DNA from: Arthrobacter sp. H20
Lineage (GTDB): Bacteria > Actinomycetota > Actinomycetes > Actinomycetales > Micrococcaceae
Length of the DNA: 39,029 bases
Assembly (NCBI RefSeq): GCF_000520515.1
Contig: NZ_KI914712.1
Location: 68,496 to 107,524 of the forward strand
Direction: 5' to 3'
Both the position numbers and the translations under genes were made by a program. Shown piece by piece: positions 1,699-31,508 of the stretch (positions within the stretch are counted from its first letter, which is position 1; each line of letters opens with the position of its first letter). The notes beneath the pieces are model-generated. The model was not told the DNA's origin, ran no database searches, and saw nothing but the letters and a program-made list of their open reading frames with translations.

Positions 1699-2484
1699 CT
1701 AATCCGGTTGTGGGCTTCGTGGCGGGCTCAGTCCCAGCCTAGTGGAAACGTCGGTGGTAGTGCCGATCATGTCCTCGGGCAGGCCAGCCAGTGACCGCTC
1801 CTGGAGTCGTAGCACTGCGGACCGCAACGCGAGTTCCGGGTCGAGTCCAGCGATGGTGGACCGTTGCACAACTGATAGCAGCAGGTCCCCCAGCTCGGCT
1901 TCGGTCTGCGGTGCTGGGAGGTGTTCCCCAGGGGCGGGCAGAACTCCAGGCTGGGGCAGTGACGAGCCGGTCCGGCGGAGGGTCTTCGCTGCAAGCGCCA
2001 GGGCCGGCAGCTGCCTGGGAATTCCGTGGAACGGGTCGGCCCGCCGGGATTCCTCGGCACGCTTCACCTGCTGCCAGGTTGCCACGATCTCCTCGACTGT
2101 TGCGGTGTTGGAGGTGTGCAGTGCGCCGTCAGGAGTGAAGACGTGCGGGTTGCGTCGGATCATTTTCCGGGTCAGCCCGTCGACGACGTCGGTGAGGTTG
2201 AAGTGTCCGCGCTCCTGCTGCAGCTGGGCGTGCAGCACCACTTGCAGCAGGACGTCACCCAGCTCTCCGCGCACTTCGGCTGCACCACCGGCGGAATCGC
2301 AGGTGCTGTCGTCGAGTGCATCGACCAGCTCGTAGCACTCCTCCACCAGGTATTCGACGAGCGAGGCATGGGTGAGCTCAGCCATCCACGGGCAGTGTTC
2401 CCGCAGCTGGGCCACCACCTCAACCAGCCGGTCCAGCGGGTGCTGGTCTGCTGGTGAGGCGGGGCCCGGTTCTGGCTCAGGCAT
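1699..2484 (-). CDS. mazG: MazG-family nucleoside triphosphate pyrophosphohydrolase
   Basis: Hydrolyses (d)NTPs to monophosphates and pyrophosphate, a house-cleaning activity. Residues about 45-85 carry the MazG core, an all-alpha metal site: EYLVEECYELVDAL followed by ELGDVLLQVVLHAQL, i.e. the EExxE and ExxD pattern. A second, partial repeat near the C-terminus (AELGDLLLSVVQR) fits the two-domain architecture; 261 residues is close to E. coli MazG. The frame stays open to 2565, but the extra 27 codons lie inside add. The ATG at 2484 overlaps the add stop by 8 bp (ATGCCTGA), which suggests translational coupling, and the conserved part starts soon after, so I use it. Confidence 0.9.
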   Translation of the reverse strand: MPEPEPGPASPADQHPLDRLVEVVAQLREHCPWMAELTHASLVEYLVEECYELVDALDDSTCDSAGGAAEVRGELGDVLLQVVLHAQLQQERGHFNLTDVVDGLTRKMIRRNPHVFTPDGALHTSNTATVEEIVATWQQVKRAEESRRADPFHGIPRQLPALALAAKTLRRTGSSLPQPGVLPAPGEHLPAPQTEAELGDLLLSVVQRSTIAGLDPELALRSAVLRLQERSLAGLPEDMIGTTTDVSTRLGLSPPRSPQPD

Positions 2485-3613
2485 CAGCGCGAAAAAAGCC
2501 TTCGGTGATGTAGTCGGCCAGAGCCTCCCGGTCTTCGAGCGGGAGGAAGGCTGCACCGACGGCATTGAGAGTCAATTCCAGCAGATCATCCAGGTCGTAA
2601 TCGAACGTCTCGGCGAGGAGCTCAAACTCGTCGGTCAGGGTGACACCGCTCATGAGCCGGTTGTCGGTGTTGACCGTGACCTTGAATCCCAGCTGGAACA
2701 GCAGATCGATGGGGTGGCTGGCAATGTCACCGCCAAACGCCGCAATCGCTCCGGTCTGGAGGTTCGAGGACGGGCAGATTTCTAGCACAATACCTCGGTC
2801 GCGGACCCACGAAGCTACCTGACCGAGGGTGACGACGCCGAGTTCTGGCTCATCACTGTCGGCGTCGTATTCAATTTCGATGTCTTCGGCGATCCGGACT
2901 CCATGGCCGAGCCGCAGGGCGTGCCCGTGGACCAAAGCATCGACGATACTGTCCAGGCCAGCGGCCTCGCCGGCATGGACTGTGGCGGGGAACTGGTGTT
3001 CGGCCAGGTAGGTGAACGCGTCCTTGAACCGCGATGGAAGGAACCCGTCTTCGGCACCAGCAATGTCAAAGCCCACTGCGCCCTTGTCGCGGTGCCTGAC
3101 AGCAAGTTCAGCGATCTCCTGACCACGGTCCGCGTGCCGCATCGCAGTGATCAACTGGCCCACCTGGATGGCCCGGCCGCCGGCAACTATGGCGTCGACA
3201 CCCTCATCGAGGCCCTGCTGGACTGCCTCGACTGCCTCGTCAAGGCTGAGGCCCTTGGCTGTGTGCTGTTCCGGGGCCCAGCGGACCTCGCCGTAAACGA
3301 CGCCGTCGTCGGCCAGGTCCTCGACGAACTCGCGGGCCACCCGGATCAGACCCTCACGGGTCTGCATGACAGCGATGGTGTGATCGAAGGTTTCGAGGTA
3401 GCGCACCAGTGAACCAGAGTTGGCCGATTCCCTGAACCACTCGCCCAGTGCCACGGCGTCGGTGGACGGCAACTGGTGTCCAACCGCTTCGGCGAGCTCG
3501 ATGATCGTTGACGGACGTAACCCTCCGTCCAGGTGGTCGTGCAGGGACACCTTGGGAAGGCTCCGCAGATCGAAGGAAAGGTCGGTCGCTGGGGAGGTTA
3601 TTGACTCAGTCAC
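2477..3613 (-). CDS. add: Adenosine deaminase
   Basis: Deaminates adenosine or deoxyadenosine to inosine forms in purine salvage. The zinc-binding HxH is at residues 25-27 (SLHDHLDGG). Later motifs are FDIAGAED, the zinc His in TVHAGEAAG, LGHGVRI, EICPSSNLQTGAI and the metal Asp in VTVNTDNRLMSG. The last motif has TDN where animal and E. coli enzymes have TDD; actinobacterial Add proteins commonly have this, so it is not taken as damage. The length, 378 residues, is slightly above the family average. The GTG start at 3613 has an AAGG 8 bases upstream. It lies 52 bp after the dedA-like gene, overlaps mazG, and is close to the nucleoside uptake operon, which fits a shared salvage role. Confidence 0.95.
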   Translation of the reverse strand: MTESITSPATDLSFDLRSLPKVSLHDHLDGGLRPSTIIELAEAVGHQLPSTDAVALGEWFRESANSGSLVRYLETFDHTIAVMQTREGLIRVAREFVEDLADDGVVYGEVRWAPEQHTAKGLSLDEAVEAVQQGLDEGVDAIVAGGRAIQVGQLITAMRHADRGQEIAELAVRHRDKGAVGFDIAGAEDGFLPSRFKDAFTYLAEHQFPATVHAGEAAGLDSIVDALVHGHALRLGHGVRIAEDIEIEYDADSDEPELGVVTLGQVASWVRDRGIVLEICPSSNLQTGAIAAFGGDIASHPIDLLFQLGFKVTVNTDNRLMSGVTLTDEFELLAETFDYDLDDLLELTLNAVGAAFLPLEDREALADYITEGFFRADA

Positions 3614-3665
3614 TTCACTTACCTTACGCGAGGTGCGGTGGCTGTCCTATCGATGCTCTGCACAA

Positions 3666-27985: not shown

Positions 27986-28885
27986 TCAGCCTAAGGGATG
28001 TGCCCCACGGCGCTCGGCAGCCTCCACCACGTTGGACAGCAGCATTGCCCTGGTCATCGGGCCCACACCGCCGGGGTTCGGTGAAAGCCAGGCAACAACC
28101 GCCCCTGCCGCCGGTTCAACGTCACCGGTCAGCTTCGCTGCGCCGGTCTCCGGGTCGGTGACGCGGGTGACGCCGACGTCGAGCACAATCGCGTCGGGCT
28201 TTAAGTCGACCGCCTTGATCATGCCCGGGAAGCCAGCGGCAGCGACGACTACATCGGCCTGCCGCAGCAGGTGCGGCAGGTCAACGGTTCCAGTGTGGGC
28301 CAGGGTGACAGTTGCATTGATGTCGCGGCGCGTGAGGAGCAGGCCGAGGGGGCGGCCCACGGTGATTCCGCGACCCACCACCAGGACATTCTTTCCGTCG
28401 AGGGAGATACCGTGCCGCCGCAGCAGTTCGACAATGCCGTGAGGGGTACAGGGCAGCGGCGAATCCAGCGGGGCACCCACGTTCAGCACCAGCTTGCCAA
28501 GGTTGACCGGGTGCAGCCCGTCAGCGTCCTTCTCCGGTGCCATCCGTTCGAGAATGGCGTTCGCGTCGAGGTGCTTCGGCAGGGGCAGTTGGACGATATA
28601 GCCGGTGGTGACGTCGTCGTCGTTCAATTCATCGATGACCTTCTCCAGGTCCGACTGCGAGATGTCAGCGGGCAGGTCGCGGCGGACCGAAGTAATGCCA
28701 ACCTGCTCGCAGTCACGGTGCTTCCCTGCAACATAGGAGTGGCTGCCCGGGTCATCGCCCACCAGGACGGTGCCCAGTCCGGGGGTGATGCCACGCTCCT
28801 TGAGGGCGTTGACGCGGGTGGTCAGCTCGGAACGGATAGCGGCGGCGGTCTTTTTACCGTCGAGAATCTGTGCGGTGGGGCTCAT
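27986..28885 (-). CDS. folD: Methylene-THF dehydrogenase / methenyl-THF cyclohydrolase
   Basis: Interconverts 5,10-methylene-THF and 10-formyl-THF. The active site motif [15 protein letters not shown] holds the Tyr-x3-Lys pair; [12 protein letters not shown] carries the conserved Gln, EKDADGLHP the Asp, [14 protein letters not shown] is a signature, and the nucleotide site is [16 protein letters not shown] in place of GRS is the usual actinobacterial form. At 299 residues it is normal. The ATG at 28885 overlaps the stop of the small Cys-rich ORF by 4 bp (ATGA). It works with glyA upstream and purU across the leader in controlling the 10-formyl-THF pool. Confidence 0.97.
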
Positions 28886-29007
28886 GGTGTGGTGCCAGCT
28901 TCCAGTTGCTCAAGCACGAATGCCTTGCCGCGGTCGCAGCAGCCGGTGAAGCAGCACTCGTCGGTGGGAATGTCGTAGTCGGGGGAGGCGGCCGCGGCCG
29001 AGGCCAA
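28882..29007 (-). CDS. Small cysteine-rich ORF between glyA and folD, unknown function
   Basis: A 41-codon frame from TTG (29007) to a TGA that overlaps the folD ATG by 4 bp (ATGA). GAGGG lies 5 bases before the TTG. The protein has an Ala-rich head, then [15 protein letters not shown] with two Cys pairs (CC-x3-CC, residues 18-19 and 23-24), and a polar tail ending LEAGTTP. Third codon positions are strongly G/C until the last few codons, as in neighbouring genes. A GTG at 29034, overlapping glyA by 7 bp, would give 50 residues. The four cysteines could bind a metal or form disulfides; I recognise no family. Confidence 0.6.
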
Positions 29008-29027
29008 CGCACCCTCGGGGAGGTCCG

Positions 29028-30335
29028 CTACCACTGCTCGTGTTCAGGGTAGAGCGGAAAATCGGCGGTCAGGGCCAGGACGCGGGCGCGCAGGGCTGCC
29101 GCCTCGGCGCCGGGCTTCAGCGCGGTAGCGATGATGTCAGCCACCTCCGTGAACTGCGCTGCGCCGAAGCCGCGGGTGGCCAGCGCCGGGGTGCCGATGC
29201 GGAGACCGGAGGTGACCATTGGCGGGCGCGGGTCGAAAGGCACAGCGTTGCGGTTCACTGTGATGCCGATCGAATGGAGCAGATCCTCGGCCTGCTGGCC
29301 GTTCAGCTGCGAGGCCCTCAGGTCGACCAGCACCAGGTGGACGTCGGTGCCGCCGGTCAGGACCGAAACACCGTGGTCGCTCACATCGGTGGACGTCAGC
29401 CGCTCCGCGATGATGCGGGCACCCTCGAGCACACGCTGCTGGCGTTCCCTAAACTCGGGGGATCCGGCAATCTTGAACGCCGTCGCTTTGGCTGCGATGA
29501 CGTGCATTAACGGTCCGCCCTGCTGCCCCGGGAAGACCGCCGAGTTGAGCTTCTTGGCCCACTCCTGTTTCGCCAGGATGACACCCGAGCGGGGACCAGC
29601 GAGAGTCTTGTGGACAGTTGAGGTGACGACGTCGGAGTGGGGCACCGGGCTGGGGTGCAAACCGGCTGCGACCAGGCCGGCGAAGTGGGCCATATCGGTC
29701 CACAGGAGCGCACCAACCTCATCGGCGATAGCTCGGAATGCGGCGAAGTCGAGCTGCCGGGGGTAGGCCGACCACCCAGCGATGATCACCTGCGGCTTTT
29801 CGGCAATGGCCTGGGCTCGGACCCGGTCCATGTCAAGGCGGTGGGTGTCCTGCTCAACGCCGTACGCGGCAACCTCGTACAGCTTGCCGGAGAAGTTCAG
29901 CTTCATTCCGTGGGTCAGGTGGCCCCCGTGGGCGAGTGAGAGGCCCATGATCTTGTCACCGGGTTTGATCATTGCGGCGAGCGCGGCAGCGTTGGCCTGG
30001 GCCCCTGAATGTGGCTGGACGTTGGCGAACTCCGCCCCGAACAGGGCCTTGACCCGCTCGATGGCGAGGCTCTCGGCAACGTCAACGTGCTCGCACCCGC
30101 CGTAGTACCGGCGCCCCGGGTAGCCCTCGGCGTATTTGTTGGTCAGGACCGAGCCCTGTGCCTGAAGCACAGCGCGCGGGGCGAAGTTCTCCGATGCGAT
30201 CATCTCAAGGGTGTCCCGCTGGCGGGCCAGTTCGTCGGTCAGGACTGCGGCAATTTCCGGGTCAATCTCCGACAGGGGGGCGTTGGTGACTGCTGAGGTG
30301 GCAGATCCGGTGGCGGGCAGGGACGAAGTTGTCAC
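29028..30335 (-). CDS. glyA: Serine hydroxymethyltransferase
   Basis: Converts serine and THF to glycine and 5,10-methylene-THF. PLP enzyme of 435 residues. Landmarks are [63 protein letters not shown], the Asp of [16 protein letters not shown] and the PLP lysine in [13 protein letters not shown], followed by [17 protein letters not shown]. The GTG at 30335 has AGGAG 7 bases upstream. A 309-bp leader carries a ZTP riboswitch. The following small ORF starts around its stop and folD is next, so these are probably one transcript. Confidence 0.97.
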
Positions 30336-30449: not shown

Positions 30450-30600
30450 CGTCCCAGGCGTGCGATCCGTGGTCGGCGCTGCGCGCCGTCGTCGTCGGTG
30501 TGGTCCTCCCGCAGGGGATTCCCCTGCAGCGGCCTTCCCCACGATGACGATGCATGCCGCTTCCTGATGGTGACCCACCTGACGCCAGTCACGGCAGCCC
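30450..30600 (-). ncRNA. ZTP (pfl-type) riboswitch in the glyA leader
   Basis: On the minus strand the leader starts with CCGTGACTGGCG, then AGGTGG, ACCATCAGGAAGCGG and, after a long variable linker, ACGCCTGGG (30461-30453). This order matches the pfl/ZTP motif: GCCG (30595-30592) pairs with CGGC (30559-30556), GGCGT (30586-30582) pairs with ACGCC (30461-30457), and GGTG/CACC forms the small inner hairpin. The linker (about 95 nt) holds a near-perfect GCAGGGGAATCCCCTGC hairpin; linkers of this class vary in length. ZTP/ZMP signals 10-formyl-THF shortage and activates folate genes, which fits glyA-folD. Read by eye, not by covariance search. Confidence 0.83.
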
Positions 30601-30644: not shown

Positions 30645-31508
30645 GTGACTAACTCCCCCGCCCACCCGGCCTCCTTCATCCTCACCCTCTCCTGCGCTGA
30701 TCAACCGGGCATTGTGCATGCGGTCGCCGGTGCGTTGGTGAGTTCGGGCTGCAACATCACCGAATCTCAGCAGTATTGGAGTCCTGATACCGGGACGTTC
30801 TTCATGCGGGTGGCCATGAGCACTGCAGCACCGCGGATGTCGCTGGAAGCCCATCTGGCTCCGGTGGCCGGGGCATTCGGCATGACCTGGGCGCTGCACG
30901 ACGACGGCGCCCCTGCCCGTACCGTGATCCTCGCCTCGACGTCGGCGCACTGCCTCAACGACCTACTGTTCCAGCAGCGCTCGGGCACCCTGCCGATCCA
31001 GATCCCGGCAATCGTCTCCAACCACACCGATCTTGCCGACCTGGCAGCGTTCTACGGGATCCCGTTCCACCACATCCCGGTCACTGCCGCGACCCGGGAC
31101 GCGGCCGAGGACGCCCTCCGCGACGTCATTGCCGAGCACAACGTTGAGCTGGTGGTCCTGGCACGCTACATGCAGATCCTCAGCGACGGTCTGTGCTCGG
31201 AGCTCGTGGGCCAGGCGATCAACATTCACCATTCGTTCCTGCCGTCCTTCAAGGGGGCCAAGCCCTACCACCAGGCGCACGCTCGCGGGGTGAAGCTCAT
31301 CGGGGCGACAGCACACTATGTGACACCGGCCCTGGACGAGGGGCCGATCATCGAGCAGGAGGTCATCCGGGTGGACCATGCCCGCTCGGCCGAGCAGTTC
31401 GTGGCAATCGGCCGCGACGTCGAAGGCCGCACCCTCACCCAGGCCGTGCAGTGGCACGCCGAACATCGGGTGCTGCTCGACGGCAGCAGGACTATCGTCT
31501 TTAACTGA
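30645..31508 (+). CDS. purU: Formyltetrahydrofolate deformylase
   Basis: Hydrolyses 10-formyl-THF to formate and THF, setting the one-carbon pool. An N-terminal ACT domain (FILTLSCADQPGIVHAVAGAL onward, about residues 10-85) is followed by a formyltransferase-fold domain with the catalytic Asn-His-Asp arrangement in INIHHSFLPSFKGAKPYHQAH and ATAHYVTPALDEGPII. SNHTDLADLAAFYGIPF is also typical. The 287-residue length is normal. The start is GTG at 30645. No ribosome binding site lies upstream, and a -10-like TACGCT ends 6 bases before it, so the mRNA may be leaderless. It is divergent from the ZTP-controlled glyA-folD unit. Confidence 0.96.
   Translation: MTNSPAHPASFILTLSCADQPGIVHAVAGALVSSGCNITESQQYWSPDTGTFFMRVAMSTAAPRMSLEAHLAPVAGAFGMTWALHDDGAPARTVILASTSAHCLNDLLFQQRSGTLPIQIPAIVSNHTDLADLAAFYGIPFHHIPVTAATRDAAEDALRDVIAEHNVELVVLARYMQILSDGLCSELVGQAINIHHSFLPSFKGAKPYHQAHARGVKLIGATAHYVTPALDEGPIIEQEVIRVDHARSAEQFVAIGRDVEGRTLTQAVQWHAEHRVLLDGSRTIVFN

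Follow-up and report, generated by a model that had tools for sequence, protein, structure and literature searches.

The short open reading frame between glyA and folD in the window (the whole stretch of 39,029 nucleotides from Arthrobacter sp. H20 that was analysed) is almost certainly a real protein-coding gene, judging by the selection recorded in its codons. It encodes a product of 50 residues with a CC-x3-CC stretch. A gene of 50 codons under strong selection lies in a core metabolic operon, and none of the family catalogues that were searched contains a match to it.

A small gene between glyA and folD

On the minus strand, the order of the genes was glyA (30335-29028), the small ORF (29034-28882), and folD (28885-27986). 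The flanking genes are presumably glyA and folD, as family knowledge was applied to their translations. The features are as follows:

27986..28885, minus strand: folD, methylene-THF dehydrogenase/cyclohydrolase, downstream of the small gene (from translation; matched by relatives)
28882..29034, minus strand: small gene of 50 codons, GTG start, TGA stop
28918..28974, minus strand: conserved core, residues 21-39, ending [DE]-R-G-K-A-F (from selection and motif sharing)
29028..30335, minus strand: glyA, serine hydroxymethyltransferase, immediately upstream of the small gene (from translation; matched by relatives in tblastn)
30453..30596, minus strand: probable ZMP/ZTP riboswitch leader of glyA (30555-30596 by model, the CGCCTGGG half by eye)

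The position of the small ORF given in the initial annotation was confirmed by translation. Its GTG start overlaps the glyA stop by 7 nt and its TGA overlaps the folD ATG by 4 nt, the latter as the ATGA that had been described. The mostly G/C third positions reported earlier were also found, the GC content by codon position being 0.69/0.51/0.84 over codons 1-45. According to the protein search, the gene is present as a single copy in its own genome, where the two other matches (E 0.2 and 0.3) were at chance level. Divergent from glyA, a gene named purU (formyl-THF deformylase) from its sequence is located at 30645-31508 on the plus strand.

The dN/dS check on an alignment that had been proposed earlier revealed purifying selection. 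For 28 sequences, the window's own included, the ratio by Nei-Gojobori count was 0.20 over codons 3-45, 0.34 over codons 3-20, 0.10 over codons 21-45, and 0.018 (~0.02) over codons 26-38, with synonymous variation present at every codon from 26 to 38. The four cysteines were invariant in all 28 sequences of this genus. Moreover, residues 22, 26, 29-31, 35-38, and 41 (I22, E26, F29, T30, G31, R35, G36, K37, A38, and L41) were invariant while their codons varied. The five other frames were interrupted over codons 1-45: two had a stop in every one of the 28 sequences, and the other three in 10, 8, and 7 of them. A chance ORF was rejected, the dN/dS values of the 28 sequences lying far beyond chance.

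The 41-codon version beginning at TTG, which the initial annotation had favored, was not retained. Codon 10 was TTG in 5 of 28 sequences, and residues 6, 9, and 12 were kept on either side of it, so that conservation extended N-terminal of the TTG. Codon 1 was GTG in 20 sequences and ATG in 8; this triplet and Val-2 are dictated by the overlapping end of glyA (GAR-TGG-TAG) and are not independent evidence. Since P6 was conserved in 27 of 28 sequences and A9, S12, A14, and A15 in all 28, a start of translation at the GTG/ATG overlapping the glyA stop is supported.

Upstream of glyA, no Rfam model matched anywhere in the window at the gathering score. At the E-value threshold, a partial ZMP-ZTP match was obtained at 30555-30596 on the minus strand; it scored 27.3 bits (E 0.064), where the gathering score is 39. 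Downstream of this match, CGCCTGGG was recognized by eye near 30460 on the same strand, which we take to be typical of the ZMP/ZTP riboswitch. The linker of the probable riboswitch is long, and Rfam scored the first half alone, below gathering. A ZTP riboswitch upstream of glyA is regarded as likely, though not proven.

Distribution, losses, and a second location

The search with the window protein covered 395 family genomes, and 31 of the 38 belonging to the window's genus, its own included, were matched strongly, at E 3e-16 or better. Two of the seven without a match were only 83% and 68% complete. The same 31 genomes were recovered with a 22-row profile built from these relatives. In a set of 57 genomes, 35 of them from the genus, all 29 strong matches fell within the genus. 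Among 596 candidates listed from named genome contigs, one was confirmed, in a contig of an Arthrobacter MAG (L033). The initial annotation had proposed that loss of the cysteine pairs or of the frame in relatives with the same synteny would speak against the gene; both were kept, and the motif CC-x2-GCC-x-[KR]G-x-A-[FY] was found in all 31 carrier loci.

The arrangement was equally constant. GlyA and FolD flanked the small gene in 32 loci of 29 genomes (tblastn); for the other two carriers (G022 and G014), whose proteins both entered the tree, the placement was established by reading the junction. All 30 rows (29 genomes) began with GTG or ATG and had the 7-nt overlap with the glyA stop, and in 28 of these the inferred folD start lay -29 to +1 nt from the small-gene stop. 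The remaining two rows read on into folD, one in frame (L023, 349 residues) and one out of frame (L019, 109 residues). Given this operon arrangement, the small protein should be co-produced with the enzymes of folate one-carbon metabolism. The in-frame case, around 1501-2550 of L023 in a one-contig genome (G003), either represents a fusion that arose naturally or has lost the stop, with folD starting internally.

Five junctions of the genus (G001, G004, G011, G017, and G033) had a glyA-folD gap of ~4 to 87 nt and no small gene, and CC-x2-GCC was absent from these loci in any frame. Thus, the small gene is dispensable. The 52-nt gap of G017 reads LLEQPNEDDPHE into folD, which by eye resembles the C-terminus of carriers (for example FLLEQL...EDDPHE in L021), and the gaps of G001 and G011 retain a similar stretch. 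The gap of G017 looks like a deletion remnant of the small gene. A quick tree built from GlyA+FolD (50 rows) had a branch with SH-aLRT 88 that held the genus rows on one side, and the presence of the gene required three changes; the chosen outgroup did not form one side of any branch in this tree. The distribution is compatible with a single gain in the genus followed by two or more losses. These natural losses within one genus provide ready comparisons, and the gene is short enough for synthesis.

For other genera, 24 loci were read (one genome each), with glyA before folD in 22 and gaps of ~ -4 to 195 nt; CC-x2-GCC was found in none of the 24. At one locus (L144, G079), a glyA match was absent before folD, and a stretch resembling a ZTP riboswitch was seen by eye within 150 nt upstream. 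At another (L146, G063), a second folD copy, ~44% identical to that of the window, directly followed a purU-like end (by eye).

A diverged homologue, DFDLDEDCCLGGCCAKGTAY, was found in a second genus of the family (g36) as a separate gene near purA/bioB and not between glyA and folD. The window protein alone gave weak matches in five genomes of this genus (E 6e-4 to 0.0086) before any profile existed. When 197 family genomes were searched with profile A3, six genomes of the second genus matched at E 1e-13 to 4e-12, partly by construction, since four of the 15 rows of A3 came from that genus; the same search gave eight strong matches in the window's genus and four other genomes at E 0.002-0.03. 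The alignment of profile A1 (first genus) with A5 (second genus, five sequences) by hhalign had a probability of 95.1% and E 3.2e-8 over 23 columns. CC-x2-GCC-x-[KR]-G-x-A was common to the window gene and the homologue, and the four cysteines were kept in all six second-genus loci.

Each of these six loci has its own ATG with a Shine-Dalgarno-like GAGG or AGGAGG ahead. The PurA start lies ~130 nt downstream of the homologue in three of them (L036, L037, and L107), while bioB adjoins it in L039, L190, and L040. Two of the latter, L039 and L040, also have purA further along. Neither glyA nor folD was matched by tblastn in the fetched surroundings L036-L043, and the one glyA-folD junction of this genus that was examined (L133) had no insert. 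In L039, at 2346-3635, the BioB beside the CC-x3-CC gene carries a C-terminal Cys/Gly-rich tail (SSGGCCGSGGCGG).

Members of the family were seen in these two genera and in none further. The 22-row profile gave ~30 weak matches (E 0.001-0.1) among family genomes, a minority of which were inspected; the loci inspected from outside the two genera included L038 and L041-L043. L038 (G077) was rejected as a homologue, its CCLPGCCDCG lying in another frame of a large ORF, and the weak family matches L191-L194 showed no CC-x2-GCC. Across 396 genomes of the order, the pattern [DE]CC-x2-GCC occurred at 46 places in 44 genomes. Three places were the known gene, 40 others were examined, and three (G468, G533, and G460) were left out. 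The fuller motif CC-x2-GCC-x-[KR]G-x-A-[FY] was found at one of the 40, the second-genus locus L107, and some of the others sit in long frames (L098, for example, of 662 codons).

At the level of the phylum, CC-x2-GCC-x2-G matched 75 of 346 genomes, and a reversed control pattern also gave many matches; among the 30 loci listed, the fuller motif was present in the window's own alone. Profile A3 run against 168 class genomes returned the window's own genome and one weak match (G1225, E 4e-4), which was rejected because, by our reading, it overlies a long open frame of an unrelated kind and is not in that frame. The small gene was not found in the plasmids searched, and none of eight candidates was confirmed in the viral contigs searched.

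Proposed function and competing readings

There is an even chance that the product is a small, trans-acting, probably cytosolic protein that uses its cysteines for soft-metal or thiol/disulfide switching and acts on a partner. Its layout would comprise a variable N-terminal half (residues 1-20), the CC-x3-CC stretch, and a C-terminal G-K-A-F-L-L-E-x-L that is probably helical. A soft metal ion (of the zinc, iron, or copper type) would be bound by the four cysteines, or these would alternate between the thiol and disulfide states; once loaded or oxidized, the protein would act on a partner or pass the metal on. Because the second-branch gene is separate with its own Shine-Dalgarno and selection acts on residues other than cysteine, it is highly probable that the small protein works in trans. 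It is reasonably likely that the CC-x3-CC stretch carries out metal or thiol chemistry. The sequences show coding, selection on the protein, synteny, loss in some genomes, and homology to the separate second-genus gene; from them we infer translation in the cell, metal or redox chemistry, co-expression, and any effect on one-carbon metabolism. Should metal or redox state be sensed through the cysteines, the gene would link that state to the supply of folate one-carbon units.

The initial annotation had also offered a coupling leader peptide. On this reading, a cysteine-rich ORF would act in cis, sensing charged tRNA-Cys or carrying ribosomes from glyA to folD, which would suit the paired cysteine codons and an ORF that overlaps the glyA stop in every one of the 30 rows and overlaps or abuts the inferred folD start in 28 of them. 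In cysteine-responsive attenuators, a terminator or antiterminator separates the ORF from the gene that it regulates, and conservation is limited to the cysteine codons. Polycysteine leaderless short ORFs of mycobacteria are reportedly attenuators of this kind. Short ORFs of this type are already published, as far as an entry in the reference list of PMC7790235 indicates (Canestrari 2020, on polycysteine leaderless short ORFs of mycobacteria). Like those ORFs, the small gene is actinobacterial and has adjacent cysteine codons ahead of a metabolic gene, but it lies inside an operon, has conserved non-cysteine residues and no attenuator spacer, and has a homologue that is a separate gene.

Conservation in the 28 sequences was not confined to cysteine codons but extended to the ten other invariant residues from I22 to L41, and the homologue of the second genus is a separate gene and not a leader within an operon. 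Moreover, 28 of 30 rows had no spacer before folD that could hold a terminator or antiterminator, and a simple consensus scan of the window found no terminator-like site on the minus strand between 27900 and 30700. In addition, 22 of the 24 loci of other genera have glyA before folD without the small gene. The leader peptide is therefore disfavored and considered very unlikely.

The protein could alternatively be dedicated to FolD or GlyA, binding one of them as a partner or allosteric regulator and adjusting one-carbon flux to the metal or thiol state of the cell. Synteny speaks for the initial suggestion of such a partner, as the gene is placed between glyA and folD in all 31 carriers and 28 of 30 rows have the inferred folD start at -29 to +1 nt from the small-gene stop. 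The in-frame frame of L023 is a single case compatible with contact with FolD, although folD may start internally there. A dedicated partnership is weakened, however, because the homologue occupies a second location near purA/bioB, the L133 junction of that genus is empty, and five genus genomes lack the gene, at least two losses having left glyA and folD in place. It is accordingly regarded as rather unlikely.

A further, rather improbable reading is that of a new tetracysteine micro-protein family, belonging to one actinobacterial family, which would sense the soft-metal or thiol state and directly tune one-carbon and purine metabolism. One genus would have placed it in the glyA-folD operon, probably under ZTP control, and another near purA/bioB.

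Relation to known families and cysteine motifs

The small protein had been described as undescribed, and the family searches agree, since it matched no family in Pfam, NCBIfam, or PDB searches beyond chance. Pfam gave no match for the window protein, 15 relatives, or two full-length second-branch proteins at E up to 10, a cut-off that is nominal because HMMER filters discard most matches above about 0.1. NCBIfam gave none for the window protein and a chance-level E of 0.36 in one of 15 members, and the two matches of the PDB profile search (E 0.25 and 0.66) were taken as chance. Judging by titles and the starts of abstracts, none of the papers listed concerned this gene.

The families Oxidored-like (PF09791) and DUF5522 (PF17653) have small cysteine motifs with CC-x-x-G-C and CC-x3-C-x2-C. 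The small protein shares the CC-x-x-G-C stretch with both and might be considered a short, strongly diverged member of this CC-x2-GC-x2-C type. However, its fourth cysteine is adjacent to the third and not three residues on (CC-x3-CC against their CC-x3-C-x2-C), and neither Pfam model was matched by the window protein or the 15 relatives at E up to 10. Membership is thus very improbable. Whole-genome searches for PF09791 and PF17653 also gave no match, but 14 control genomes equally gave none, so this is not evidence of absence.

The structure model was poor (mean pLDDT 52.9, pTM 0.23, from an alignment of two sequences) and hints at a helix over residues 32-45. Tetracysteine CC-x2-CC sequences are biarsenical-binding tags, and bacterial metallothioneins are small cysteine-rich proteins. 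Like the metallothioneins, the product of the gene is small and cysteine-rich, but it has only four cysteines. With the biarsenical tags it shares two cysteine pairs in a short stretch, whereas here three residues separate the pairs and the sequence belongs to a natural conserved family.
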